Origin: Granulicella paludicola
GTDB lineage: Bacteria; Acidobacteriota; Terriglobia; Terriglobales; Acidobacteriaceae
Reading direction: 5' to 3'
Assembly (NCBI RefSeq): GCF_025685545.1
Contig: NZ_JAGSYC010000025.1
Coordinates: forward strand, 682,001 to 746,000
DNA length: 64,000 bases
The notes under the pieces are model-generated. The model had not been told where the DNA came from and did no database searches. It saw only the letters and a program-made list of their open reading frames with translations. The translations under genes were made by a program, and so were the position numbers. Shown piece by piece: positions 5,219 through 19,847 of the stretch; position 1 is the stretch's first letter, and every line of letters begins with the position of its first letter.

Positions 5219-6337
5219 ATGCAACAGGCAGGAACGAAGAAGCCCGGGTCCCAGCATTCTGAACGACGTAAGCAAGCCGCGAAAGCTGCGGCAAAGGCTG
5301 GGGCAGCGGCGTTGCTGGTGACACATCTGCCAGACGTGCGGTATCTCACTGGATTTACTGGCTCGAACGGAGCGGTAGGGATCGCGGGTGGGCGCGCTGC
5401 CTTATTTACAGATGGACGGTACACGACGCAGGCAAGGGACGAAGCTCCCGGGCTCAGGGTAAACGTAGAAAAAGGCTCCGCTGCGGTGCGTGCGGTGGAG
5501 TGGCTGGCGGGTCTGGGTGTGGCGACCTGCGCTTTCGACGCAGGACAGACCTCAGTAGCTGATTTCGAGGCGCTGAAGAAGGCTGTACCGGGGAGGGTGC
5601 GGCGAAGCTTCTTTGTAGCGGCAGATGGACTGGTTGCGAAGATCCGCGAGATCAAGGATGCCGGCGAGATCAAGCTAATGAAGAAGGCTGCTGCCTTGGG
5701 GTGCCATCTCTTTGAGGGTGTATTGGAGCACATGGTGGTCGGCGCCACGGAGATGGAGGTAGCTGCTCAGTTGGAGTTGCTGGCTCGTCGGGGCGGCGCG
5801 GAAGCGATGAGCTTCGAGACGATTGTGGCGAGCGGTGTGCGCAGCGCGCTGCCGCACGGACGCGCGACGCGGGCTAAGCTGCCGAGGCGTGGCTTCGTGA
5901 CCCTGGATTTTGGAGTTGTATTGGATGGATACTGCTCGGACATGACGCGCACGGTACACATGGGCAAGGCGAGTGAAGAAGAGTGGGACGTGTATCATTC
6001 GGTGCTGGAAGCACAGAAGGCAGCAGTGGCTGCGGTGCGTCCAGGTGTGAGCTGTGGCGATGTGGATGAGGCAGCGCGATCGGTGCTGCGAGCGGCTGGG
6101 CTGGAGAAGGCTTTCAGTCACTCCACCGGGCACGGCGTAGGGCTGGAGATTCATGAAGGACCCCGGGTGGCGGCGAAGCAGGAGCAGGTGCTGGAGCCGG
6201 GGATGATGATTACGATTGAACCTGGGGCGTATCTCCCCGGCAAGTTCGGCGTGCGCATCGAAGATATGGTGCTGGTAACGCCGAAGGGTGGCGAGGTCTT
6301 GACCGCCGCAAGCCCGAAGGCGTGGATTGAGTTGTAA
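5219..6337 (+). CDS. M24 family Xaa-Pro peptidase
   Basis: A cytosolic metallopeptidase that removes N-terminal residues preceding proline. Of 372 residues, about 1-145 form the creatinase-like N-terminal domain and 146-372 the pita-bread catalytic domain. All five metal ligands are visible: D230 (LDFGVVLDG), D241 (CSDMTRT), H305 (STGHGVGLEIH), E334 (ITIEPGAY) and E348 (GVRIEDM). The length is closer to PepQ/YqhT-type prolidases than to the 440-residue E. coli PepP, so aminopeptidase versus dipeptidase activity is left open. ATG 5219 has no Shine-Dalgarno site, and TAAAAT at 5207-5212 is placed so that transcription would begin near the ATG, which suggests a leaderless mRNA. It precedes accB-accC by 54 bases, a common order in acidobacteria as far as I recall. 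Confidence 0.92.
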   Translation: MQQAGTKKPGSQHSERRKQAAKAAAKAGAAALLVTHLPDVRYLTGFTGSNGAVGIAGGRAALFTDGRYTTQARDEAPGLRVNVEKGSAAVRAVEWLAGLGVATCAFDAGQTSVADFEALKKAVPGRVRRSFFVAADGLVAKIREIKDAGEIKLMKKAAALGCHLFEGVLEHMVVGATEMEVAAQLELLARRGGAEAMSFETIVASGVRSALPHGRATRAKLPRRGFVTLDFGVVLDGYCSDMTRTVHMGKASEEEWDVYHSVLEAQKAAVAAVRPGVSCGDVDEAARSVLRAAGLEKAFSHSTGHGVGLEIHEGPRVAAKQEQVLEPGMMITIEPGAYLPGKFGVRIEDMVLVTPKGGEVLTAASPKAWIEL

Positions 6338-6343
6338 GGGCAG

Positions 6344-6371
6344 GGATTAGGAAACAAGGATTAGGGATTAG
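6344..6371 (+). repeat. Three GGATTAG units between the peptidase gene and accB
   Basis: GGATTAG occurs at 6344-6350, 6358-6364 and 6365-6371, all in the same direction, separated by GAAACAA once and then directly joined. They fill most of the 54-base gap before accB. Confidence 0.6.
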
Positions 6372-6391
6372 AAATACAAATAGGAGATGAG

Positions 6392-6895
6392 ATGGATCAG
6401 AAGGATTTGAAGGAGTTGCAGGAGCTGGTTGAGTTTTTGAAGGCCAGCGGGATTGCCGAGTTTGAGATGGAGCGCCCGGACCTGAAGGTGGGCCTGAAGT
6501 TTGTGGGCACAGCGGCTCCGTCGAGTGGCATTGATGCGGCGCAGCTGGCGGCGTTGATGTCTGCGTCACGTGGCTCGGCTCCAGCGGTTACTCCCATGGC
6601 AGCTGCTCCTGTCGCTGCGGCGGCAGCTCCGGCGGCGCCTGCGGCTGATCCGCATGAGGGCGCGCACATTGTGAAGTCGCCGATCGTGGGCACTTTTTAT
6701 GCTTCGCCTTCTCCCGATGCGCCTGCTTTCGTGCAGGAGGGTGACACGGTGAGCGTGGGCAAGGTGCTCTGTATCGTCGAGGCCATGAAGCTGATGAATG
6801 AGATTGAGAGCGATGCCGCTGGCAAGATCGTGAAGGTATTCGTCACGCCTGGTCAACCGGTGGAGTATGGGCAGCCGCTGTTCGCGATCAAGTAG
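6392..6895 (+). CDS. accB: Biotin carboxyl carrier protein of acetyl-CoA carboxylase
   Basis: 167 residues, a usual size for AccB. Residues 1-40 are the N-terminal segment that joins the biotin carboxylase complex, 60-87 an Ala/Pro-rich flexible linker, and 90-167 the biotinyl domain with EAMKLMNEI, where K133 is the biotinylated lysine. The domain carries the carboxyl group between biotin carboxylase and carboxyltransferase in malonyl-CoA formation. AGGAG at 6382-6386 sets the start at ATG 6392. accC follows after 89 bases, which hold a family B repeat; the two genes are probably co-transcribed. The carboxyltransferase genes accA and accD are not in this window. Confidence 0.97.
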   Translation: MDQKDLKELQELVEFLKASGIAEFEMERPDLKVGLKFVGTAAPSSGIDAAQLAALMSASRGSAPAVTPMAAAPVAAAAAPAAPAADPHEGAHIVKSPIVGTFYASPSPDAPAFVQEGDTVSVGKVLCIVEAMKLMNEIESDAAGKIVKVFVTPGQPVEYGQPLFAIK

Positions 6896-10776: not shown

Positions 10777-12402
10777 ATGGCGAAACTTTTTGCAACGAAG
10801 TCGATGGCAGTTCTGATGGCCGAATCGGAGGCCACAGGCGAAGGCACGTTGAAGCGATCGCTTGGACCATTCCAGCTGACCGCGCTGGGTGTAGGAGCTG
10901 TGATCGGAGCGGGCATCTTTGTGCTGGCTGGTCTGGGCGCTCATTACGCTGGCCCCGGCCTGATGCTCTCGTTCGTGCTGAGTGGACTGGGTTGCGCGTT
11001 TGCCGGGCTCTGCTATGCCGAGTTCGCCGCAATGATTCCGCTGGCTGGATCGGCTTACACCTATGCCTACGCTACGCTGGGCGAGCTGGTGGCATGGATC
11101 ATCGGTTGGGACCTGACGCTCGAGTATGCGATGGGCGCCAGCACCGTTAGCTCGGGCTGGTCGAACCATTTTATTGAGCTGATGCAGATCTTCCATATCA
11201 ATTTTCCGCTGTGGCTGGCGTATGACCACTGGACGGCGCTGGGCGTTGCTGTCGAAAATGTTTGCCGTCAGGTGATGGCGACGAACTATCCGTCGCTGAT
11301 CGCCGGTTCGCAGGAGTACATTACGCAGCTGGGTGCGCTGAAAGCAGCTCCGACTGCGGACGTGATTGCGCGCGCGCATGTGCTGCTGGGCGCTCCTGTT
11401 CTCTTCGGCCACGAGATCGGTCTTAACCTCCCCGCGTTCATCATCGCCATGCTGGTCACGTCGATTCTCGCGATCGGTATTCAGGAGTCGGCGAAGTTCA
11501 ACTCCGGCATCGTGGTGTTGAAGGTGGCGGTCGTGCTGTTCGTGTTGGGCCTCGGTTCACACTATGTGCATCCGGCTAACTGGGGCGCGAACTGGCACCA
11601 GTTTGCTCCGTTCGGATTTGCGGGCATCGGCGCTGGAGCGGCGTATATCTTCTTCGCGTACATCGGCTTCGATGCTGTTTCGACGACGGCGCAGGAGGCG
11701 AAGAACCCGCAGCGCGATCTGCCGATCGGCATCATCGTCTCGCTGGCTGTCTGTACGCTGCTGTATATCGGCGTAGCTGCTGTACTGACGGGCATGGTGC
11801 CGTGGCAGCAGGTGAGCATTGAAGCTCCGATTGCGCGCGCATTCCTCGATCGCGGCCTGCCCTGGGCGAGTGACATTATCACTGCGGGTGCCCTGGCTGG
11901 ATTGACGAGTGTGATGTTGGTCATGCTTCTTGGTCAGACCCGCGTGCTGTACGCGATGGCAAACGATGGCTTGCTGCCGAAGAAGTTCTTCGCTGAGGTG
12001 CATCCGAAGTTCCGGACACCGTTCAAGAACACCTATCTGGTCGGGCTTATCGCTGCGATCGTGGGCGCTCTGACGCCGATCGACGATATCGGCAAGATGG
12101 TGAACATCGGAACGCTGCTGGCGTTCGTGATCGTGTGCATCTCGATCATCGTGTTGCGCCGCACTGACCCTGACAAGGCTCGTCCGTTCCGCACGCCGTG
12201 GGTACCGCTGGTGCCGATTCTCGGAGTGCTTTTCAACGGCTACATGATGATCAAGCTGGGTTGGTTGAACTGGGCCCGTCTCATTATCTGGCTCATCATT
12301 GGTCTGGTGGTGTACTTCACCTATGGGCAGAAGCACAGCCGGGTGCAGCAGAACCTGCTGCCGGGCGAACTTGATCCTGGTGCGGATAGCCCCGGAGCGT
12401 AA
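10777..12402 (+). CDS. APC-superfamily cationic amino acid transporter (YfnA/CAT-like)
   Basis: 541 residues, inner membrane. After a hydrophilic 30-residue N-terminus, the first helix reads ALGVGAVIGAGIFVLAGLGA and the second region FAGLCYAEFAAMIPLAGSAY, typical of the CAT/YfnA branch. A long periplasmic loop near residues 150-205 separates early helices. Predicted substrate: basic or broad-range amino acids, from family only. Start ATG 10777 follows CAGGAGAAG. It is only distantly like the preceding permease (about 45 bases away, same strand), so the pair is not a recent duplication. The stop lies 3 bases from that of the convergent 926-residue gene, and a hairpin at 12428-12451 inside that gene could end transcription. 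Confidence 0.93.
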   Translation: MAKLFATKSMAVLMAESEATGEGTLKRSLGPFQLTALGVGAVIGAGIFVLAGLGAHYAGPGLMLSFVLSGLGCAFAGLCYAEFAAMIPLAGSAYTYAYATLGELVAWIIGWDLTLEYAMGASTVSSGWSNHFIELMQIFHINFPLWLAYDHWTALGVAVENVCRQVMATNYPSLIAGSQEYITQLGALKAAPTADVIARAHVLLGAPVLFGHEIGLNLPAFIIAMLVTSILAIGIQESAKFNSGIVVLKVAVVLFVLGLGSHYVHPANWGANWHQFAPFGFAGIGAGAAYIFFAYIGFDAVSTTAQEAKNPQRDLPIGIIVSLAVCTLLYIGVAAVLTGMVPWQQVSIEAPIARAFLDRGLPWASDIITAGALAGLTSVMLVMLLGQTRVLYAMANDGLLPKKFFAEVHPKFRTPFKNTYLVGLIAAIVGALTPIDDIGKMVNIGTLLAFVIVCISIIVLRRTDPDKARPFRTPWVPLVPILGVLFNGYMMIKLGWLNWARLIIWLIIGLVVYFTYGQKHSRVQQNLLPGELDPGADSPGA

Positions 12403-12405
12403 GCC

Positions 12406-15186
12406 TCACGAAGGTTGGTTCGTAGGGGAGCCCGGCGATGCTGCCGGGCTCTTCTGCGTTTGTGTGGGCGTAGCAGGAGCAGATTTCTTCGAGGAGCCCT
12501 CGCTCGCAGGTTGTTTCTCCGACTGCTGTCCTTCTCCGGAAGACTTTTCCTTCTCGGAGGTCGACCTGCCCGCGCGATGCGTGCGATTCGAGGGCGGGGC
12601 CGGGAAGATGACTGAATCGACCGTCGCAGGATCGTCGCGCAACTTCAGGAAGACTGTGTACGCCGCGGGGTGAGGCACCGTGAGAGCGTTGCCGGTATAG
12701 CCATCAGGTACCGGCGTCGAGACCGTAAAAGTCGGGTCCGTCGATATGGCCTGCACGAGGAAGAGGTTGCTGCCAGTCAGGGTGCAGGGCTGGGATTCCG
12801 CTTCTGGGCATTGCAGTTGCGTTAGCGTCGGCAGTCGCACCAAGGTGACAAAGGGAAGCCAGTCGCTCGTGGCAGCTTTGTCTCCCGGGAAGACAGCGCG
12901 CAGGTGCAACGCTCCAAAGGCACTGGGTCCGAAGGAGCGCAGCGGGTCAAGCGTGGCCACCACGGTGTGAGGATCCTGCAGGAGTAGACCGCCCGAGGGC
13001 GCAAGCGTCAATACCGTGCGCAGGGTACCGTCGAGAGTCTCGATCTCGATCTGTCCGTTGCGTGGAAAGTTGCTCTGGCTCTTTACGGTGAAGGTGAGGC
13101 TTGTGCTGAGTGGCAGGTCGTCTGGATTGGGCAGAGCAATGAGAGAGTTGGTCGGCGCAGCGGTCTTGCTGAGTAGTGAAAGCGAAGGTCGGGGGGAGCC
13201 GACCGTCACAGGTACGGTGATCGATCGTCCGTCGTGCAGGTTTAATTTCGCAGAGAGGTGGTCGCCATCGTGGATCGAGGGCGGCGGCAGCGTTGCAGGC
13301 AGAGCGAGGCGAAGCGTGTCTTTTCCATCGGAAGAGGTAAGGCCGTCCGGTGTCGGCGAAAAGACGAGGTCTCCGAGCATCAGCTGCGAAACTTCGTTCA
13401 GGTGCGACCCCATCAGCTGGAGTGAGCGATCTCCGGCATGAAGTTCGACGCCGGTGATATTTGCAGGCTCCGCGAAGGTACGCGCGGCGAGTTTATCGGG
13501 CTTCGGCTGATCGAACTGCTGGATGTCGAGGTTTAGGTCACCTGGCGTGATGTTGTGATCGAGCGGCAGAGTGAGCGCCAGCACCTGGTCAAGAGGTTGA
13601 GCTTCAGGGGCAGGCGTTGCCTCTGGCGTATCCGAGGGTGGGGTCAGAGGCTCGGGTTTGAAGGCGATGTTGATGTTGGCCCGCACGCCGTTGGGCCTAG
13701 CCGTGATCGTATGCACGCACGAGGTACCTGAAGAGGCGAGCAGCAACTGTACGTTACGGCCAGCGATCAGGTCGGGATTGGCATCTCCGCGGGCGACAAT
13801 GTGCCAACCGGAGCCGGGGAGTTGCTGCAGGGGCATGGTCGGTCCAGTAAAGCTGTCGAAGCCCCATCGGCCCATGACGGTGCCTGTCAGCAGGACCGGC
13901 TTGGGCTGAGTCGCCACAGGCGCCGGAGTTCGGGTGACTGGCGCTGCGGGTCCAGTATCGGCGGACGCCAGGGGTTGCGGCTGCGGCAGGAGAACGTGGT
14001 GCTCGGGCGTCTGCTGCAGTACAAGGCCGCCGAAGTAGGCATCAGGCACCAGAGGGATGTCCGGTTGAGTGGGAGCTCCGGGGGGTGTGTTCAGGTGCAA
14101 CACGAGATTATGCGCGAAGTCGGCGGAGAAGACCAGCGGAGCGCCCTCGGTAGGGAGTACGACCGAGGGTTGAATGAGGCAGCTAACGTGGTTGGGGTCG
14201 GCGGCGCGCAAAGGTGGAGGAGTTGCCGCCTGCACGGCGGGCAGAGCTATGACCAGCACAGACTTCGGATTATGGAAGGAGGGTGGTGTGTTCAGGCGCA
14301 GGTTCATCTGCTCGGCCTGTGGGAAGCTGATGGCGGGGATGTATTGGAACTGCGCCGTGTGCAGGCTGCCCATAATGCGAATCACGTCGACAATGGCGCC
14401 CACGTAGGCGGAGTAGACGCCAGCGCCCAAAGCCTGCGTGTAGCTGGCCTGCTGGATGAGATCGGAACCTGGTCCATTCGAAAGTGCATTGATGACGGTC
14501 TGCCCATGGCCATCGTCCAGCACGACCTGGGTGCCGGTCTGCGTCAGACAGCTGAATTGTGTATCGACTGGGCGCTTGAAGCAGTCTGCATTGGGCTTCA
14601 AGGCGAGAGTGCGCGCCAGCAGATCGGAGTGCTTTTGCAGGTCGGCCGGATCGGCTGGAGGTACGCGGCGAATGTCGGCGATGTACTTTTCGATGCGTGC
14701 CTCTTCGAAGCCAGCCTCGATCAGATCCTGGGAGGCGCGGACAAAGGAGCCTGGACGACCTTGGACTGCGGAACGTAGCGTAGAGAAATCACCGCCGGTT
14801 TCGGGCGCCATGAAGATCAGCGCCTGCTGGGCTTCGGCGGGCACGGTGATAAAGACGCCTTCGGCGCGGACGTGATGGTCCCAGGTCTCAACACGGGTAA
14901 ACCATTCCGGGGGCGGAGGGTTGGTGGTGCCTCGCAAGAACGTAACGATCAGCAGATACTTGACCGACTGGGTGGGTGGCAGGTCGGGGTGAATCCAAAG
15001 CTTGTCGCCGGGCTTCAGTGTGGGAACCTGGGCGATTGGCAACGTGACGCCGTTGCGGGTAACGCGCACATCGATCTTGGGACCGACGAGGTCAAAGCGC
15101 GCGGTGGCCTGCGCCTGCGCATGCGGCAGGCCAAAGGTGAGGAGCAGCGAGAGGAGCGTAACCGTCTTGCGGGTGAAATACCCCAT
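12406..15186 (-). CDS. Large secreted protein of unknown function (926 residues)
   Basis: I do not recognise the family. From ATG 15186 the protein begins with a clear Sec signal peptide (FTRKTVTLLSLLLTFGL, ending PHAQAQA). The mature part is rich in Pro, Thr and Leu with many short beta-like segments. Residues near 420-450 form a Pro/Ala linker (PAAPVTRTPAPVATQPKP). The last 60 residues are Ser/Lys/Glu/Pro-rich (RSTSEKEKSSGEGQQSEKQ) and look disordered. Cysteines are few and partly paired, which suits an extracytoplasmic place. The frame is open 44 codons further up, but that extension has no signal peptide at its start. Codon use and GC fit the neighbours. It diverges from the membrane-protein/DNase II genes across 175 bases, so a shared control region is plausible; a joint function is inference only. 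Confidence 0.8.
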   Translation of the reverse strand: MGYFTRKTVTLLSLLLTFGLPHAQAQATARFDLVGPKIDVRVTRNGVTLPIAQVPTLKPGDKLWIHPDLPPTQSVKYLLIVTFLRGTTNPPPPEWFTRVETWDHHVRAEGVFITVPAEAQQALIFMAPETGGDFSTLRSAVQGRPGSFVRASQDLIEAGFEEARIEKYIADIRRVPPADPADLQKHSDLLARTLALKPNADCFKRPVDTQFSCLTQTGTQVVLDDGHGQTVINALSNGPGSDLIQQASYTQALGAGVYSAYVGAIVDVIRIMGSLHTAQFQYIPAISFPQAEQMNLRLNTPPSFHNPKSVLVIALPAVQAATPPPLRAADPNHVSCLIQPSVVLPTEGAPLVFSADFAHNLVLHLNTPPGAPTQPDIPLVPDAYFGGLVLQQTPEHHVLLPQPQPLASADTGPAAPVTRTPAPVATQPKPVLLTGTVMGRWGFDSFTGPTMPLQQLPGSGWHIVARGDANPDLIAGRNVQLLLASSGTSCVHTITARPNGVRANINIAFKPEPLTPPSDTPEATPAPEAQPLDQVLALTLPLDHNITPGDLNLDIQQFDQPKPDKLAARTFAEPANITGVELHAGDRSLQLMGSHLNEVSQLMLGDLVFSPTPDGLTSSDGKDTLRLALPATLPPPSIHDGDHLSAKLNLHDGRSITVPVTVGSPRPSLSLLSKTAAPTNSLIALPNPDDLPLSTSLTFTVKSQSNFPRNGQIEIETLDGTLRTVLTLAPSGGLLLQDPHTVVATLDPLRSFGPSAFGALHLRAVFPGDKAATSDWLPFVTLVRLPTLTQLQCPEAESQPCTLTGSNLFLVQAISTDPTFTVSTPVPDGYTGNALTVPHPAAYTVFLKLRDDPATVDSVIFPAPPSNRTHRAGRSTSEKEKSSGEGQQSEKQPASEGSSKKSAPATPTQTQKSPAASPGSPTNQPS
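12428..12453 (+). terminator. Hairpin overlapping the 3' end of the opposing gene
   Basis: GAGCCCGGC (12428-12436) pairs with GCCGGGCTC (12443-12451), 9 bp with a 6-base loop, then TTCTGCGTTT. It lies 26 bases after the permease stop codon and inside the last codons of the minus-strand gene. Confidence 0.45.
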
Positions 15187-15361
15187 AGGTCTTAGTTTAG
15201 ATGCGACCTCGCCGAGATTGTTGCTGTGGAGGATCTCATGCAGACCAAATCGAAGGGGGGCCATCCGAATGCAACAGAGAAAAGTGGTTGGAGAGAAAGA
15301 TATTGTTGCTACTGACAAAGACTGGTGCTAGCATCGGCGCGTTCCTACAAACCAAATCTAT

Positions 15362-15685
15362 ATGTCACCTGCTGTGATCCTGGGCCTGGAGTTTCGAGGT
15401 TTTCTCGCGCTGCTTGCAGCGACGTTCGCCTATCGCATGTTGACCGGGCGACTGTCGCTGGCCGGACTGTTTGCGGACAAGACGCGCAACCAGCCCGTGA
15501 GCCCGGAGCGGGTGCAGCTTTTGATTTCAACGATCGCGGTGAGTGCTCGGATTGTCGGCCAGGCAGCGCACGGCAGCACGGTGTTTCCAACGGTATCAAC
15601 GCAGGAGCTTGTGGTGTTTGGGGCCAGTAGCGGCGTGTACATGTCTGTGAAGGCCGCCAAGATGTGGTTGCTAAAGACGATCTAA
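15362..15685 (+). CDS. Small membrane protein, paralogue of the next gene
   Basis: 107 residues, about three hydrophobic segments (roughly 4-22, 50-66 and 82-98). Its layout copies that of the next protein: an N-terminal helix, a polar stretch with LSLAGLF, then S-x-E-R-V-Q-L-L leading into a hydrophobic segment, VFP, and a last segment ending GVYMSVKAAK. The neighbour has S-x-S-R-L-Q-L-L, VFP and STYAVGKG at the same places. This supports an old tandem duplication. Family unknown to me. ATG 15362 lacks a clear ribosome site. Stop TAA at 15683-15685 lies within the ribosome site of the next gene, so the two are translated from one mRNA. Confidence 0.75.
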   Translation: MSPAVILGLEFRGFLALLAATFAYRMLTGRLSLAGLFADKTRNQPVSPERVQLLISTIAVSARIVGQAAHGSTVFPTVSTQELVVFGASSGVYMSVKAAKMWLLKTI

Positions 15686-15697
15686 GGAGAGATGACG

Positions 15698-16147
15698 ATG
15701 GGTTTGATGCAGACGATCTGCGGTTACGGTGTGTGCCTGTTCATGGGGCTGCTTTGCGCGACCTTGCTGTGGTTTATCTGGACCGACAAGATCGACCTTT
15801 CGAAGGTGTTGTCGGAGGCGAACGGCTCCGCAAGCATCTCGCGCCTGCAGTTGCTGATCTTTACCCTCGTGGTCGCGATCAGCCTCTTCATGATGGTGGA
15901 GACCAATCATGTGTTTCCGGCGATTCCTGACGGCATACTGACGCTGCTGGGGATCAGTGCGAGCACCTATGCGGTCGGCAAAGGAATCTCCTACAGCCGC
16001 GATGAAGGTGTGACCACGCCGGAGGAGCGCGCTGCCGTGCGAAATAGCGCTCAGCAGATGTCGAATACGGGTGCAGCGGTCGCCGCCGACGCCTCAAACG
16101 TGGTGTCATCGGGTGCTGATCCTTCTCCTGCAAACACCAACAACTAG
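15698..16147 (+). CDS. Small membrane protein, paralogue of the preceding gene
   Basis: 149 residues from ATG 15698, which is spaced correctly from AAGGAGA at 15684-15690; ATG 15692 is too close. Three hydrophobic segments: about 5-27, 48-64 and 78-92. Between the first two lies WTDKIDLSKVLSEANGSASI, then SRLQLLIFTLVVAISL. The C-terminal 45 residues are hydrophilic, Ala/Ser/Asn-rich and probably disordered, a part that its paralogue lacks. The gene is followed after 35 bases by the DNase II-like gene on the same strand, so the three form one operon. The S-x-x-R-x-Q-L-L element preceding a helix is shared by both paralogues and may be a functional or packing motif; no function is known to me. 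Confidence 0.78.
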   Translation: MGLMQTICGYGVCLFMGLLCATLLWFIWTDKIDLSKVLSEANGSASISRLQLLIFTLVVAISLFMMVETNHVFPAIPDGILTLLGISASTYAVGKGISYSRDEGVTTPEERAAVRNSAQQMSNTGAAVAADASNVVSSGADPSPANTNN

Positions 16148-16182
16148 AACGTTGTCGGGCGCGATTGCTGAGGAGAAAGACG

Positions 16183-17598
16183 ATGCCGGCTAAGAAAACG
16201 ACCACGACGGTAACCACCACGACTACGACGCCCGCAGCGCCAAAGAAGGGCAGTCTTGTGCGCACGATCGGTCCGGCGATTCCGTTAGCCATTGCGCTGG
16301 CTTGCGGATCGCTGAGCGGTACCGGCAAGGCACCGCAGGCTGTGCCCGAGGCTTCCACCACCCAGATGGTGATGGGCGCCGCGACGCCTAGTGCACCACC
16401 GATGCCTCTGTTGGCGAAGGGGCATCCGGTGGACTGGTGGTTCGTCTTCAAGCTCGATGCGAAGGCATACCCGAACTGTGGCGGAGGCGATATCACCTGT
16501 CCGTTCGGTGGCAGCAAGCAGACCTATGCTGGCGGCCAGCAGTTTGTGTATGCGAGCAGTGAGGCGCCGGCGCTGGCAAAGAGCGCGCAGGAGTGTCTGG
16601 GTACCACAACGAGCGATCCTGTAGGAGCTACTTTTGACGAGGTCTTCAACGGCGGGTATCACTACCTGATCTGGAACGATCAGTTTCATGATGTGAGTCC
16701 GGCGGTTCTTGGCTGCTCGAAGGGCGACTGCGGATCGCCCTGGGGTCATTCCAAGGGCATGGTGGCGTGGAACGATGCGGGTGAAGGCTTCGTGATGCAG
16801 GTCAGTACGCCCTCGTGGCCGAACGCGGGCAACCTGAAGTCGGTGCAGGCGACAGGGAACACGCTCGGCTGTATCAACGGTGACGACGACGTTGAGGTGA
16901 GTCAGCACTTCTTCGCGCTGAAGCTGAACGAGACGGACTTGAAGGTGGTGCTGACCTCGTTGAGTCAGGCCAGTGTGGCGACCGATCCGAACAATCCGCA
17001 GGTGGCGAACATCGGCGGGCCCGCCGATGTGATCGACCTCCTGAAGCAATTGAAGCTTGGAGTAAAGTCGACGCAGACGGTGCTCGACCCGGCGATGCCC
17101 GTGACGCTTTCAACGGGAGTGCGCCTGATTGCAAAACCCTCAGGGCTGCATGTTCCGCCGTGGCAGATGGTGTCCTCTGTGCTGGGCGGCGTGCCGCTGC
17201 GTGCCGCGACGTGGTGGGCCACGCCGTATATTCCTTCAACGACGGGCGGAGCTCCTCCGGCTTGCTGGGACAGCTCTTTGCCAACCGCTCCAGGTGCGGT
17301 GGAGATTGCGACCTCTGGCAGCTGGAACGGAGGTCCGGTGTTCAACCTGAAGGGGGAATCCGGCACGGATGGCAATCATGCGAAGATCGGTGTTTCGACC
17401 AGACCGGGTGATGGGTTGGCGATCTTCGGGGACGAGAACCAGCAGGGAACGCTGGACGGCCCGGACGGAACCTGCGACAGCAGCCAGAATGGCCGCGGTG
17501 GCATGTTCTTCGTGATGAAGAACGCGACGCTCTCCGCCGACATGGCCAAGCTGATAGCCGGAGGAACGGCGGCTACGACGCCTCCGGTGACTCCATAA
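16183..17598 (+). CDS. DNase II-like protein (HxK nuclease of the PLD superfamily), membrane- or surface-directed
   Basis: 471 residues from ATG 16183 (AGGAGA at 16171-16176). Residues 1-20 are Lys/Thr-rich (a run TTTTVTTTTTT), 28-45 hydrophobic (GPAIPLAIALACG), which suggests a signal anchor. From about 82 it matches the DNase II pattern: VDWWFVFKLD, then YHYLIWNDQ, the first HxK motif in GHSKGMVAWND (H189, K191), a SWPNAG stretch, PWQMVSSVL, and the second HxK motif in GNHAKIGVS (H399, K401), followed by GDEN (417-420) and GRGGMFFVM (437-445), which correspond to GDxN and RGGG in animal DNase II. Such enzymes cut double-stranded DNA without metal ions. Bacterial members exist but are little studied. 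Several cysteines fit an extracytoplasmic place. Family call by motif recognition, not by search. Activity, target and link to the two membrane proteins are inference. Confidence 0.72.
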   Translation: MPAKKTTTTVTTTTTTPAAPKKGSLVRTIGPAIPLAIALACGSLSGTGKAPQAVPEASTTQMVMGAATPSAPPMPLLAKGHPVDWWFVFKLDAKAYPNCGGGDITCPFGGSKQTYAGGQQFVYASSEAPALAKSAQECLGTTTSDPVGATFDEVFNGGYHYLIWNDQFHDVSPAVLGCSKGDCGSPWGHSKGMVAWNDAGEGFVMQVSTPSWPNAGNLKSVQATGNTLGCINGDDDVEVSQHFFALKLNETDLKVVLTSLSQASVATDPNNPQVANIGGPADVIDLLKQLKLGVKSTQTVLDPAMPVTLSTGVRLIAKPSGLHVPPWQMVSSVLGGVPLRAATWWATPYIPSTTGGAPPACWDSSLPTAPGAVEIATSGSWNGGPVFNLKGESGTDGNHAKIGVSTRPGDGLAIFGDENQQGTLDGPDGTCDSSQNGRGGMFFVMKNATLSADMAKLIAGGTAATTPPVTP

Positions 17599-17603
17599 TG
17601 AAT

Positions 17604-18362
17604 CTAGCGGACGCGGCGGCTGGGCCCGTCGGACTCAACCGAACCGTCGCGGATGCTGATGACGCGATGAGCGAAGTCAGCGATGTCCGGTTCATGCGTC
17701 ACGAGAATGATGGTGTTGCCCTGCGCCTGTAGTTCATCGAAGAGGGCCATGATCTCGACCGAGGTCTTCGAGTCGAGGTTGCCGGTGGGTTCGTCGGCGA
17801 GGATGATAGAAGGCTTATTCACCAGGGCCCGAGCAATGGCCACGCGTTGACGCTGACCGCCCGAAAGCTCGTTCGGCTTGTGGTGCATACGGCTACCGAG
17901 ATTTACCGATTCCAGCACGAACTTAGCGCGCTCGATGCGCTCGGCTGCAGGCGTGCCGTTGTAGATCAGCGGCAGCTCCACGTTGTGCAGAGCTGTGGCA
18001 CGGGCCAGCAGATTGAAGGTCTGGAAGACGAAGCCGATTTCCTTATTGCGGATGCGGGCGAGTTCATCGTCGTTCAGCTTTGAAACGTCATGCCCGTTCA
18101 ACCAATACTGTCCCTTGCTCGGCGAATCGAGGCATCCGAGTAGATTCATCAACGTTGACTTGCCCGAGCCTGATGGGCCCATGATGGCGACGTACTCGTT
18201 GTGGCGGATGCGGATATCGATACCGCTCAGGGCATTTACGATCTGATCACCCATCTCGTAGGTCTTCCACAGATTGTCGGTGACGATGACGTCGCCTTCG
18301 CGGGGGCCGGATGCGTTGGCGCCGATGCGGTCTTGTTCAGGCGGGTCGATGGTGTAGGCCAT
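17604..18362 (-). CDS. ABC transporter ATPase, MacB/LolD type
   Basis: 252 residues with all nucleotide-binding motifs: Walker [10 protein letters not shown] (62-70), Q-loop [20 protein letters not shown], signature [15 protein letters not shown] (166-180), Walker [13 protein letters not shown] (186-197) and H-loop VTHEPD (H223). The FQTFNLL and DEPTGNLD wording is typical of the MacB/LolD/FtsE group. It lies 66 bases behind the adaptor gene on the same strand. A permease partner is expected as a fusion or next gene, but this protein ends at residue 252 and the next gene downstream is the opposing DNase II-like gene. The permease must therefore be encoded elsewhere or be lost. Confidence 0.93.
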
Positions 18363-18428
18363 GAAGATCTCCGATAAAGCTTCAAAGAGGGATAACGTTT
18401 ATGCGACGAGCGACCGCCGCATAGCGGG

Positions 18429-19847
18429 TTAGCTGGAGCTGTCGTCCGAGGGCGCTGCTGCGGCGACTGAATTATCGCGTTTGACGGCAGTGCCACTCTT
18501 GAGGATGCGCAGTGTCTTATAGCGGCCGGTAACAATCTCGTCGCCTGCCTTCAGGCCGGCGATCACCTCGATGTCTGTAGTGCCCGTGACGCCGGTCGAA
18601 ACCGGAACGAACTTCACGCGAGTACGGTTGTCATCCATCACAAGGATGTAGACGCCCTGCGTGAGCGGCTTCGCCTTGGTCGGAGCGACATCGCCGGTGG
18701 GAGGCGTCTTACCCTTGTTCTTGAAGAACTTCGCTTCCGTGTCTGCATCGCGTTCTACCAGCGCCTGAATGGGGATGGTGAGCGCATCGTTTTTGTGCGC
18801 GGTGGTCAGTTTTGCCGTGCAGGAGAGGCCAGGCCGCAGCGAGTCGGGCATCTGAGAACCACCGCCAGGCAGTTGATCCAGTGTCACGACAACCTTGAAG
18901 TCTTTCGCCTCTTCCGTGCCGGTGGTCGACTGCGTGGTGGATAGGCCGGTCGTGCGCAGCAGAGCCTGATCTCCAACCTCGGTCACGTGGCCCTTAAAGA
19001 TTTTGCCGGGCAGGGCATCTACGGTGACGTCTGCGGACTGGCCCATCTGCACGTTCACAATGTCCGTTTCGTCGACCTTCACCTCAGCGGTGATAACGGA
19101 CATATCTGCGAGCGTCATGATGGTCGAGCCGCCGGCGTTCTGGATGCCGACAACGACGGTCTCGCCCTCGCGGACAGGAACGTTGGTGACCAGAGCGTCA
19201 TAAGGCGCGCGGCTGATCGTCTTATCCAGGGCGTCGAAGTTGGATGTCTGCGTTGCAACGGCCTGGCTCATATGACCGCGAGCGGAAGCAGTCTGGGCCT
19301 TCGCCTGTGCCACGGAGGCATCACGCTGCTCCAGCGTGGCTTTGGACATGTCGAAGGCGGCCACCTTGGCGTCGTAGTCCTGCTTGGAGATCAGCTGGTC
19401 GTTGTAGAGCTGCTTGGCGCGGCTGTAATCGAGCTGCTTCTGTTCGAGGTCGGCCTTAGCCTGCGAGACGTTCGCAACGGCGGTGCGTTCGGCAGCGATG
19501 TAGGAGTTGATGTCGGTTTTGGAAGCGGCGATCGCGGCGCTCTGGGCCGAGACGGTCGCCTCGGGCTGCACGCTTTCGACGCGGGCGAGCAGGTCGCCCT
19601 TCTTTACGTGGTCGCCTTCCTTCACATAAAGGTGCGTGATGCGACCGAAGGCGGTCGCACCTACGTTGACGTAGGTCTTGGGCTTGATCTGCCCTGTGCC
19701 GCTGACATTGGCGTCCAGATCCTGGCGTACCGCCTTGGCCGTCGTGACGGCCAGCACGTCTGTGCGGCTATAGAGGATGCTGCCATAGACGATGCCAACA
19801 AGGGCGATCAGGGCCAGGATGACGAAGAATACCTTTTTTCCGCTCAT
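18429..19847 (-). CDS. MacA/HlyD-like periplasmic adaptor of an efflux pump
   Basis: 472 residues from ATG 19847. An N-terminal membrane anchor (VFFVILALIALVGIVYGSIL) is followed by the lipoyl half VNVGATAFGRITHLYVKEGD, a coiled-coil hairpin from about 80 to 190 rich in Ala/Lys/Gln, the second lipoyl half APYDALVTNVPVREGETVV, and beta-barrel/membrane-proximal domains up to VITGRYKTLRIL-like end sequences. This architecture links an inner-membrane ABC transporter to an outer-membrane channel. It is the first gene of a two-gene unit with the ATPase. No TolC-like gene is visible. A small insertion around residues 370-390 (DTEAKFFKNKGKTPPTGD) is Lys-rich. Substrate unknown; peptides, lipids and macrolides are known for relatives. 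Confidence 0.92.
   Translation of the reverse strand: MSGKKVFFVILALIALVGIVYGSILYSRTDVLAVTTAKAVRQDLDANVSGTGQIKPKTYVNVGATAFGRITHLYVKEGDHVKKGDLLARVESVQPEATVSAQSAAIAASKTDINSYIAAERTAVANVSQAKADLEQKQLDYSRAKQLYNDQLISKQDYDAKVAAFDMSKATLEQRDASVAQAKAQTASARGHMSQAVATQTSNFDALDKTISRAPYDALVTNVPVREGETVVVGIQNAGGSTIMTLADMSVITAEVKVDETDIVNVQMGQSADVTVDALPGKIFKGHVTEVGDQALLRTTGLSTTQSTTGTEEAKDFKVVVTLDQLPGGGSQMPDSLRPGLSCTAKLTTAHKNDALTIPIQALVERDADTEAKFFKNKGKTPPTGDVAPTKAKPLTQGVYILVMDDNRTRVKFVPVSTGVTGTTDIEVIAGLKAGDEIVTGRYKTLRILKSGTAVKRDNSVAAAAPSDDSSS

Follow-up and report, generated by a model that had tools for sequence, protein, structure and literature searches.

A candidate unit of two small membrane proteins and a DNase II family nuclease in Granulicella paludicola

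DNase II is characterized by metal-independent acid endonuclease activity. The animal enzyme is lysosomal or secreted, and the phospholipase D superfamily is characterized by paired His-Lys catalysis. Two HKD-variant HxK motifs are described for animal DNase II in PMC4148230, and bacterial DNase II is already known, with Burkholderia named in passages of PMC4148230 and PMC4349608. The bacterial enzymes seem little studied, the literature found being mainly animal work, and no unit of a DNase II with a membrane protein appears in the titles and abstract openings of the open literature searched. The locus described here lies in the window, a 64,000-nucleotide stretch of the genome of the soil bacterium Granulicella paludicola, and places a DNase II family nuclease directly after two genes for small membrane proteins, memA and memB. 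Its features are as follows.

12406..15186, minus strand: divergent neighbor encoding a 926-aa exported protein, judged to lie outside the unit from its spread (118 of 200 family genomes) and a gene-block comparison
15362..15685, plus strand: memA, a 107-aa small membrane protein, first repeat of the membrane module
15698..16147, plus strand: memB, a 149-aa small membrane protein, second repeat of the membrane module
16183..17598, plus strand: DNase II family nuclease, 471 aa, with an N-terminal leader and 8 cysteines in the catalytic domain
16261..16299, plus strand: leader motif of the DNase II, RTIGPAIPLAIAL, residues 27-39, common to two unrelated proteins encoded after a memA-memB pair
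16747..16755, plus strand: first HxK pair, H189/K191 (GHSKG), invariant in 39 of 39 sequences and aligned with the HxK of PDB entry 5i3e
17377..17385, plus strand: second HxK pair, H399/K401 (NHAKI), invariant in 39 of 39 sequences and aligned with the HAK of PDB entry 5i3e

The three plus-strand genes are separated by gaps of 12 bases (memA-memB) and 35 bases (memB-DNase II). An alternative ATG of memB at 15692 leads to a protein of 151 aa and narrows the first gap to 6 bases, but the ATG at 15698 is better spaced to the AGGAG. The DNase II gene starts with the ATG at 16183, again with an AGGAG upstream, and a convergent ABC-transporter gene ends five bases from its stop. On the other side, 175 bases lie between the start of the divergent 926-aa gene (15186) and memA; a promoter scan of positions 15000-18500 shows no sigma-70-like site in this shared upstream region. 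The GC contents of memA, memB, and the DNase II gene (57.9-62.0%) are close to that of the window (60.1%), and a recent foreign island was rejected as an explanation, there being no sign of one. The first-pass annotation is accurate in its coordinates, in the motifs GHSKG, NHAKI, GDEN, and RGGM and their order, and in its description of a poly-Thr leader and a hydrophobic anchor; the protein has a poly-Thr N-terminus and one hydrophobic stretch at about residues 29-42.

Profile, motifs, and predicted fold indicate that the window protein is a bacterial DNase II of the phospholipase D type. The Pfam profile PF03265 matches it with 54.1 bits against a cut-off of 23 (E 1.8e-14), a match limited to residues 79-231; support for the C-terminal half comes from the alignment, a weak PDB profile match, and the AF2 model. 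H189, K191, H399, and K401 are invariant in all 39 aligned sequences, the window protein and 38 relatives from a set of 50 loci. Each of these 39 sequences matches PF03265 at E values up to 0.001. The alignment (A5) leaves out 11 of the 50 DNase IIs (L017, L022, L029, L044, L050, L051, L054, L056, L058, L061, and L065), and the H-K-H-K residues can be read in all 46 sequences of the cysteine comparison discussed below. Searched against the PDB, a profile of the 39 sequences finds the DNase II of Burkholderia thailandensis as the only match under E 1, at a weak whole-sequence E of 0.004 with weak single stretches; the HxK, HAK, GD-N, and RGG motifs align with those of 5i3e in this comparison. 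The AF2 model of the window protein (pLDDT 81, pTM 0.82, with residues 1-32 under pLDDT 50) has the same structure as its best Foldseek match (E 2.1e-13, probability 1.00), with TM scores of 0.62-0.69 by target length and 0.47-0.53 by query. PLD4 (8v08) follows at 7.8e-6 and then, more weakly, tyrosyl-DNA phosphodiesterase (1q32). The earlier suggestion of a DNase II, made from the motifs with a Pfam profile and a structure prediction named as checks, is thus borne out by both, together with the invariant HxK pairs.

The enzyme is rare. PF03265 is found at a single place in the G. paludicola genome and in 4 of 396 genomes of the phylum, and a protein search finds the DNase II in 8 of 200 genomes of the family, the organism's own genome being counted in both cases. 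A scan of genome contigs yields 44 relatives with 44-60% identity, spread over the Acidobacteriota, Pseudomonadota, Thermodesulfobacteriota, Myxococcota, Planctomycetota, Bacteroidota, Ignavibacteriota, and Actinomycetota; many of them come from metagenome bins. Phage records contain no match to the DNase II, and the plasmids searched contain no relative of the DNase II of locus L024.

MemA and memB represent variants of a single repeat, consisting of a helix, a helix with S-x-x-R-x-Q, and a helix with P...LLGISxxTYxxxK. The first-pass annotation had called the two proteins related, and iterated profile searches agree in both directions: the memB-seeded search reaches memA at E 6e-28, and the memA-seeded search reaches memB at E 1.9e-31. 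A 16-row alignment shows fully conserved R, L, T, P, G, S, and Y columns and a nearly invariant Q. The pair is the only one in its own genome. MemA has no Pfam match and no NCBIfam match over a cut-off, and memB has no Pfam match over the cut-off and no NCBIfam match. Among the relatives of both, Pfam and NCBIfam give the repeat no name; the matches are TIG domains outside the repeat in two larger family members (L161 and L162) and stray low-scoring ones. In some bacteria the two repeats are fused in one gene, and the model of the fused protein of locus L040, from which the helix count of memA is deduced, shows six long helices at pLDDT 78. This model, which stands in for memA and memB themselves, gives no Foldseek match under E 0.001 and a best VIA-align Z of 5.1, without a convincing match to a solved fold. 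In PHROGs, memB has a weak best match to a holin family (E 0.1) and memA has none. Viral contigs contain no relative of the fused family, and plasmids yield one remote match (27% identity) to the fused L040 protein. A phage or plasmid origin was rejected on the basis of these results and of those for the DNase II in phage records and plasmids.

Iterated memA and memB searches place the membrane family next to a DNase II in 13 of the 50 loci, in two arrangements. A split memA-memB pair lies upstream of the DNase II gene in eight loci (the window, L013, L014, L033, L037, L057, L062, and L063). In the other five (L024, L039, L040, L043, and L055), the gene immediately downstream of DNase II is a fused one with two repeats, 249-265 aa long. 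The remaining 37 loci show no nearby membrane-family partner, several being cut by contig ends so that a few partners may be missed; this indicates that DNase II does not need such a partner. In a quick catalytic-domain tree of 46 rows, which leaves out L061 in addition to the incomplete or split L054, L056, and L058 left out of all trees, the split-pair DNase IIs fail to group as a single clade (AU p 0.0004, at least 4 changes). This implies either repeated joining of the pair and the leader to DNase II or several joint losses. The five fused-linked DNase IIs belong to one small group of related betaproteobacteria (2 changes), and these five loci may represent one event. Conservation of the gene neighborhood in other genomes, named as a check in the first-pass annotation, is seen in part: the tie of memA and memB to DNase II holds, and that of the 926-aa gene does not.

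The leader also ties the pair to the enzyme. All eight split-pair DNase IIs begin with a short tail followed by [R/K]-x(1,3)-[AG]-P-x2-P-[LI], a pattern that none of the others has among the 51 sequences or pieces of DNase II. A stricter form, R-x(1,2)-[AG]-P-x2-P-[LI]-[AL]-x-A, occurs in the first 100 residues of 10 out of 3972 ORFs, comprising the ORFs of the 50 DNase II loci and the called genes of 32 membrane-family loci; with starts assigned mechanically, a match could be hidden in an ORF that is over-extended. All 10 lie directly after a memA-memB pair: the eight DNase IIs and the products of L166 and L168, which are of an unrelated, unnamed protein type. An HMM of the eight DNase II leaders picks out L168 (6e-11) and L166 (8.5e-4), with the next best match at 0.063. 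The association has exceptions, as L167 carries the unnamed passenger after a pair without the leader motif and L164 has a memA-memB pair without a partner. In L175, the unnamed passenger lies upstream of a fused module and is without the leader pattern, the same exchange of split and fused forms as seen for DNase II. These observations are taken as the strongest evidence that what the pair handles is the leader rather than the nuclease.

A hydrophobic N-terminal stretch, at a threshold set by the authors, is present in all eight split-pair, all five fused-linked, and 27 of the 34 remaining DNase IIs, L054, L058, and L061 being left out; the seven without it are all unpaired. Cysteines average 7.7 in the 39 proteins with the stretch versus 5.6 in the 7 without it (p 1.6e-4, kinship ignored; L054, L056, L058, and L061 left out). 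Of the eight cysteine columns, two are missing jointly from at least seven proteins; the window protein keeps all eight. The cysteine pattern and the hydrophobic N-termini favor an oxidizing, extracytoplasmic place for the enzyme. The tail before the leader is basic, and according to the positive-inside rule a basic N-terminal tail stays in the cytoplasm, which again places the enzyme outside. The membrane-linked nuclease of the first-pass annotation stands in this extracytoplasmic form. Hydrophobic N-termini of some kind in 40 of 47 DNase IIs, together with the 37 loci without a partner, would also suit a plain secreted or anchored nuclease, in which an ordinary signal peptide or anchor serves a DNase II acting alone on outside DNA and memA and memB are neighbors with an unrelated membrane task. 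This explanation is unlikely, as the membrane family adjoins DNase II in two gene arrangements and the leader pattern is tied to the split pair across two unrelated passengers.

The 926-aa gene had been counted as a fourth member of a system whose genes work together. A four-gene system was rejected. Relatives of the 926-aa gene occur in 118 of 200 family genomes, and seven of eight regions around such relatives (L074-L080, four from the same genus and three from the same family) keep a block of transporters, 926-aa gene, ABC ATPase, and membrane fusion protein without the unit. The 73-821 bases between the 926-aa and ABC matches in these seven regions are too little room for the three genes. 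The eighth region, L081, contains the transporters and the 926-aa gene, with no ABC or membrane fusion protein gene in the stretch. Conversely, the unit occurs without the 926-aa gene: L013 has it at the same ABC position with no 926-aa gene nearby, and L062 and L063 have it elsewhere with none nearby, a 926-aa relative being located elsewhere in both genomes. In the window, L014, and L057, the unit sits between the 926-aa gene and the ABC position, with the 926-aa gene adjacent. In L020 (= L064) and L025 (= L065), a DNase II that lacks the pair has a 926-aa relative at a distance of about 7.5 kb; this proximity and the adjacency in L014 and L057 count in favor of a 926-aa link. From the gene-block comparison and the 926-aa distribution, the unit is taken to be memA-memB-DNase II.

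A three-gene unit for a membrane-held, extracytoplasmic DNase is the main reading, with a probability of roughly one-half. Here, memA and memB together would form a helix module, which betaproteobacteria would make from one fused gene. The leader, with its N-terminus in the cytoplasm, would dock to this module and then be kept as an anchor or used for a handover; it could also simply be cleaved. The catalytic domain with its eight cysteines would fold on the outer side of the inner membrane and would cut DNA through two histidines, in the manner of DNase II and phospholipase-D-type enzymes. Breakdown of outside DNA would be the most likely purpose, either for salvage of phosphate, nitrogen, or carbon or for the clearing of released DNA. 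Since leader residues 1-32 are modeled at pLDDT under 50 and the L040 module matches no known fold, the docking step is without structural support.

The membrane family extends beyond DNase II. Its profile A4 matches 19 of 396 phylum genomes and 15 of the 37 genomes that hold the DNase II loci. Among 32 regions without a DNase II, 28 have a called membrane gene (L165, L179, L181, and L183 have none and lie outside the 28). A same-strand neighbor within 100 bases is present in 16 of the 28, a raw count without a random-gene baseline, and absent in 12. Nine of the 16 loci have a neighbor with a Pfam enzyme domain: an alpha/beta hydrolase (L156), a GH26 enzyme of the mannanase type (L158), a metallophosphoesterase (L159), a patatin (L160), a papain-type peptidase present as a piece at a contig end (L162), a GH46 enzyme of the chitosanase type with a PG-binding domain (L163), a subtilase (L180), a PF04185 phosphoesterase (L185), and an M36 peptidase of the fungalysin type together with a vanadium chloroperoxidase (L186). 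Four have the unnamed passenger (L166, L167, L168, and L175). The neighbors in the other three are an unnamed protein of 467 aa (L176) and proteins of 133 aa (L161) and 141 aa (L178). The lipoprotein and small genes that accompany L157, L184, and L160 show no recurrence by sequence. This variety raises the tentative possibility of an undescribed modular membrane system built on a constant helix module, split or fused and sometimes with TIG or other domains. By recognizing a leader helix or in some other way, the module would handle interchangeable hydrolases (DNase II, lipases, peptidases, glycosidases, the chloroperoxidase, and the unnamed passenger) and position them at the envelope of many bacteria from soil and water.

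The partners in these loci bear on the route of export as well. The subtilase, the chitosanase, the M36 peptidase, the PF04185 enzyme, and the chloroperoxidase are without a signal-peptide-like start, which is a poor fit with simple docking on the outside and fits an export helper better. Such a helper would use a non-Sec route to carry or insert the partner enzyme across the inner membrane, with the leader as a recognition tag. Several exo-enzyme types without such a start beside the fused form, and a leader common to unrelated passengers, agree with this proposal; the hydrophobic N-termini of all five fused-linked betaproteobacterial DNase IIs, the lack of an ATPase in the three-gene unit, and a module model without a convincing solved-fold match make it decidedly unlikely.

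Another proposal concerns conflict. A toxin or barrier nuclease could be directed at invading DNA or at rival cells, and the membrane pair would serve as its delivery or protective part. The lipases, nucleases, peptidases, and wall hydrolases found as partners or neighbors are also used as weapons. The neighbors of the DNase II genes were tallied by Pfam for 116 of 160 selected neighbors; the 44 left out are membrane-family genes, some very long ones, and probable spurious ORFs, and six loci had been left out earlier. Tle1-like proteins occur 3 times among the 116, S1/P1 nucleases 2, patatins 2, and caspases 2, versus MR_MLE 3, TPR 3, and HipA 2. The tally therefore shows no degradative theme around the lone DNase IIs, the degradative types being no more frequent than MR_MLE, TPR, and HipA. 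One plasmid copy lies near a CHAT protein, which fits the conflict proposal, as do the Tle1-like neighbors. PADLOC finds 0 families for the four window proteins at E values up to 1, and the anti-DNA defense offered among the roles in the first-pass annotation finds no support in this result; for the fused family, two PADLOC models are each matched by 1 of 14 members (best E 0.00096). The lack of the DNase II in phage records and of fused-family relatives in viral contigs also speaks against conflict, and one membrane family beside so many chemically different enzymes makes immunity unlikely. A conflict system is thus highly improbable.

If the pair recognizes the leader, one unnamed membrane family would help to explain the placement of very different degradative enzymes in diverse bacteria, and a function could be assigned to genes that are now nameless. 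Should the generic module be confirmed, it would be a new kind of system. The recurrent membrane partner and the leader common to an unrelated passenger turn a loose idea of a surface nuclease into a sharp question: does the pair recognize the leader?

Compared with known systems, the closest relative by structure is the B. thailandensis DNase II (5i3e and 5unb), which shares the fold and the HxK, HAK, GD-N, and RGG motifs with the window protein at about 16% identity. Its PDB sequence has 358 residues, in contrast to 471 in the window protein, and, with the B. thailandensis side compared as the PDB protein alone, the leader and the pair of membrane genes belong to the window protein. Animal DNase II shares the Pfam family and the paired HxK active site but has a different N-terminus and no membrane-protein operon. 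Other members of the phospholipase D superfamily, PLD4 (8v08) and tyrosyl-DNA phosphodiesterase (1q32), show the fold and come next after DNase II, with weaker fold scores and other substrates. The fused proteins beside DNase II in Roseateles, Pelomonas, Variovorax, and an uncultured betaproteobacterium (L039, L040, L043, L055, and L024) belong to the same repeat family as memA and memB; these loci differ in having one gene instead of two, located downstream instead of upstream, and a DNase II without the leader pattern.

Besides DNase II, the pair of small related membrane proteins memA and memB, and the fused membrane module (their one-gene, two-repeat relative), adjoin an unnamed passenger protein, found beside the pair in the compared loci L166, L167 and L168 and beside the fused module in L175:

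L166, 5854-6753, unnamed passenger
L167, 5885-6802, unnamed passenger
L168, 6040-6894, unnamed passenger
L175, 4805-5644, unnamed passenger

PHPNTGES-like and LWEIHP-like motifs were recognized by eye in this family, and a Pfam scan of it returned nothing over a cut-off. The exo-enzyme types adjoining the fused module in L163, L180, L185 and L186 show no signal-peptide-like start. A remote relative of the module lies near a CHAT-domain protein on a predicted conjugative plasmid of Sinorhizobium terangae:

L188 (NZ_CP121661.1), 5845-6702, remote fused-module relative

The 926-residue exported protein encoded divergently from memA (window 12406-15186) is a family-wide gene for which no Pfam name was found; its own genome carries a second relative with one internal stop (G000:C17:667707-670337).

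Near some lone or fused-module-linked DNase IIs lies a Tle1-like phospholipase, patatin, S1/P1 nuclease (these loci were picked by eye), RNase T2 or peptidoglycan-binding protein (L018, L019, L034, L024, L029, L039 and L051), a proximity that may be due to chance. In L027, a different membrane protein (11199-11948) with a TIG-like tail, judged by eye, immediately follows the 3' end of DNase II; it was not picked up by the memA/memB profile searches, and its Pfam scan gave nothing over a cut-off. In L056 (9992-11208), two overlapping open reading frames share one split DNase II, reflecting either a broken gene or a sequencing error.

Seven DNase IIs, four of them from Bacteroidota, lack a hydrophobic N-terminus and contain fewer cysteines (L028, L036, L044, L045, L046, L048 and L049). 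These are possibly cytoplasmic or non-Sec bacterial DNase IIs.
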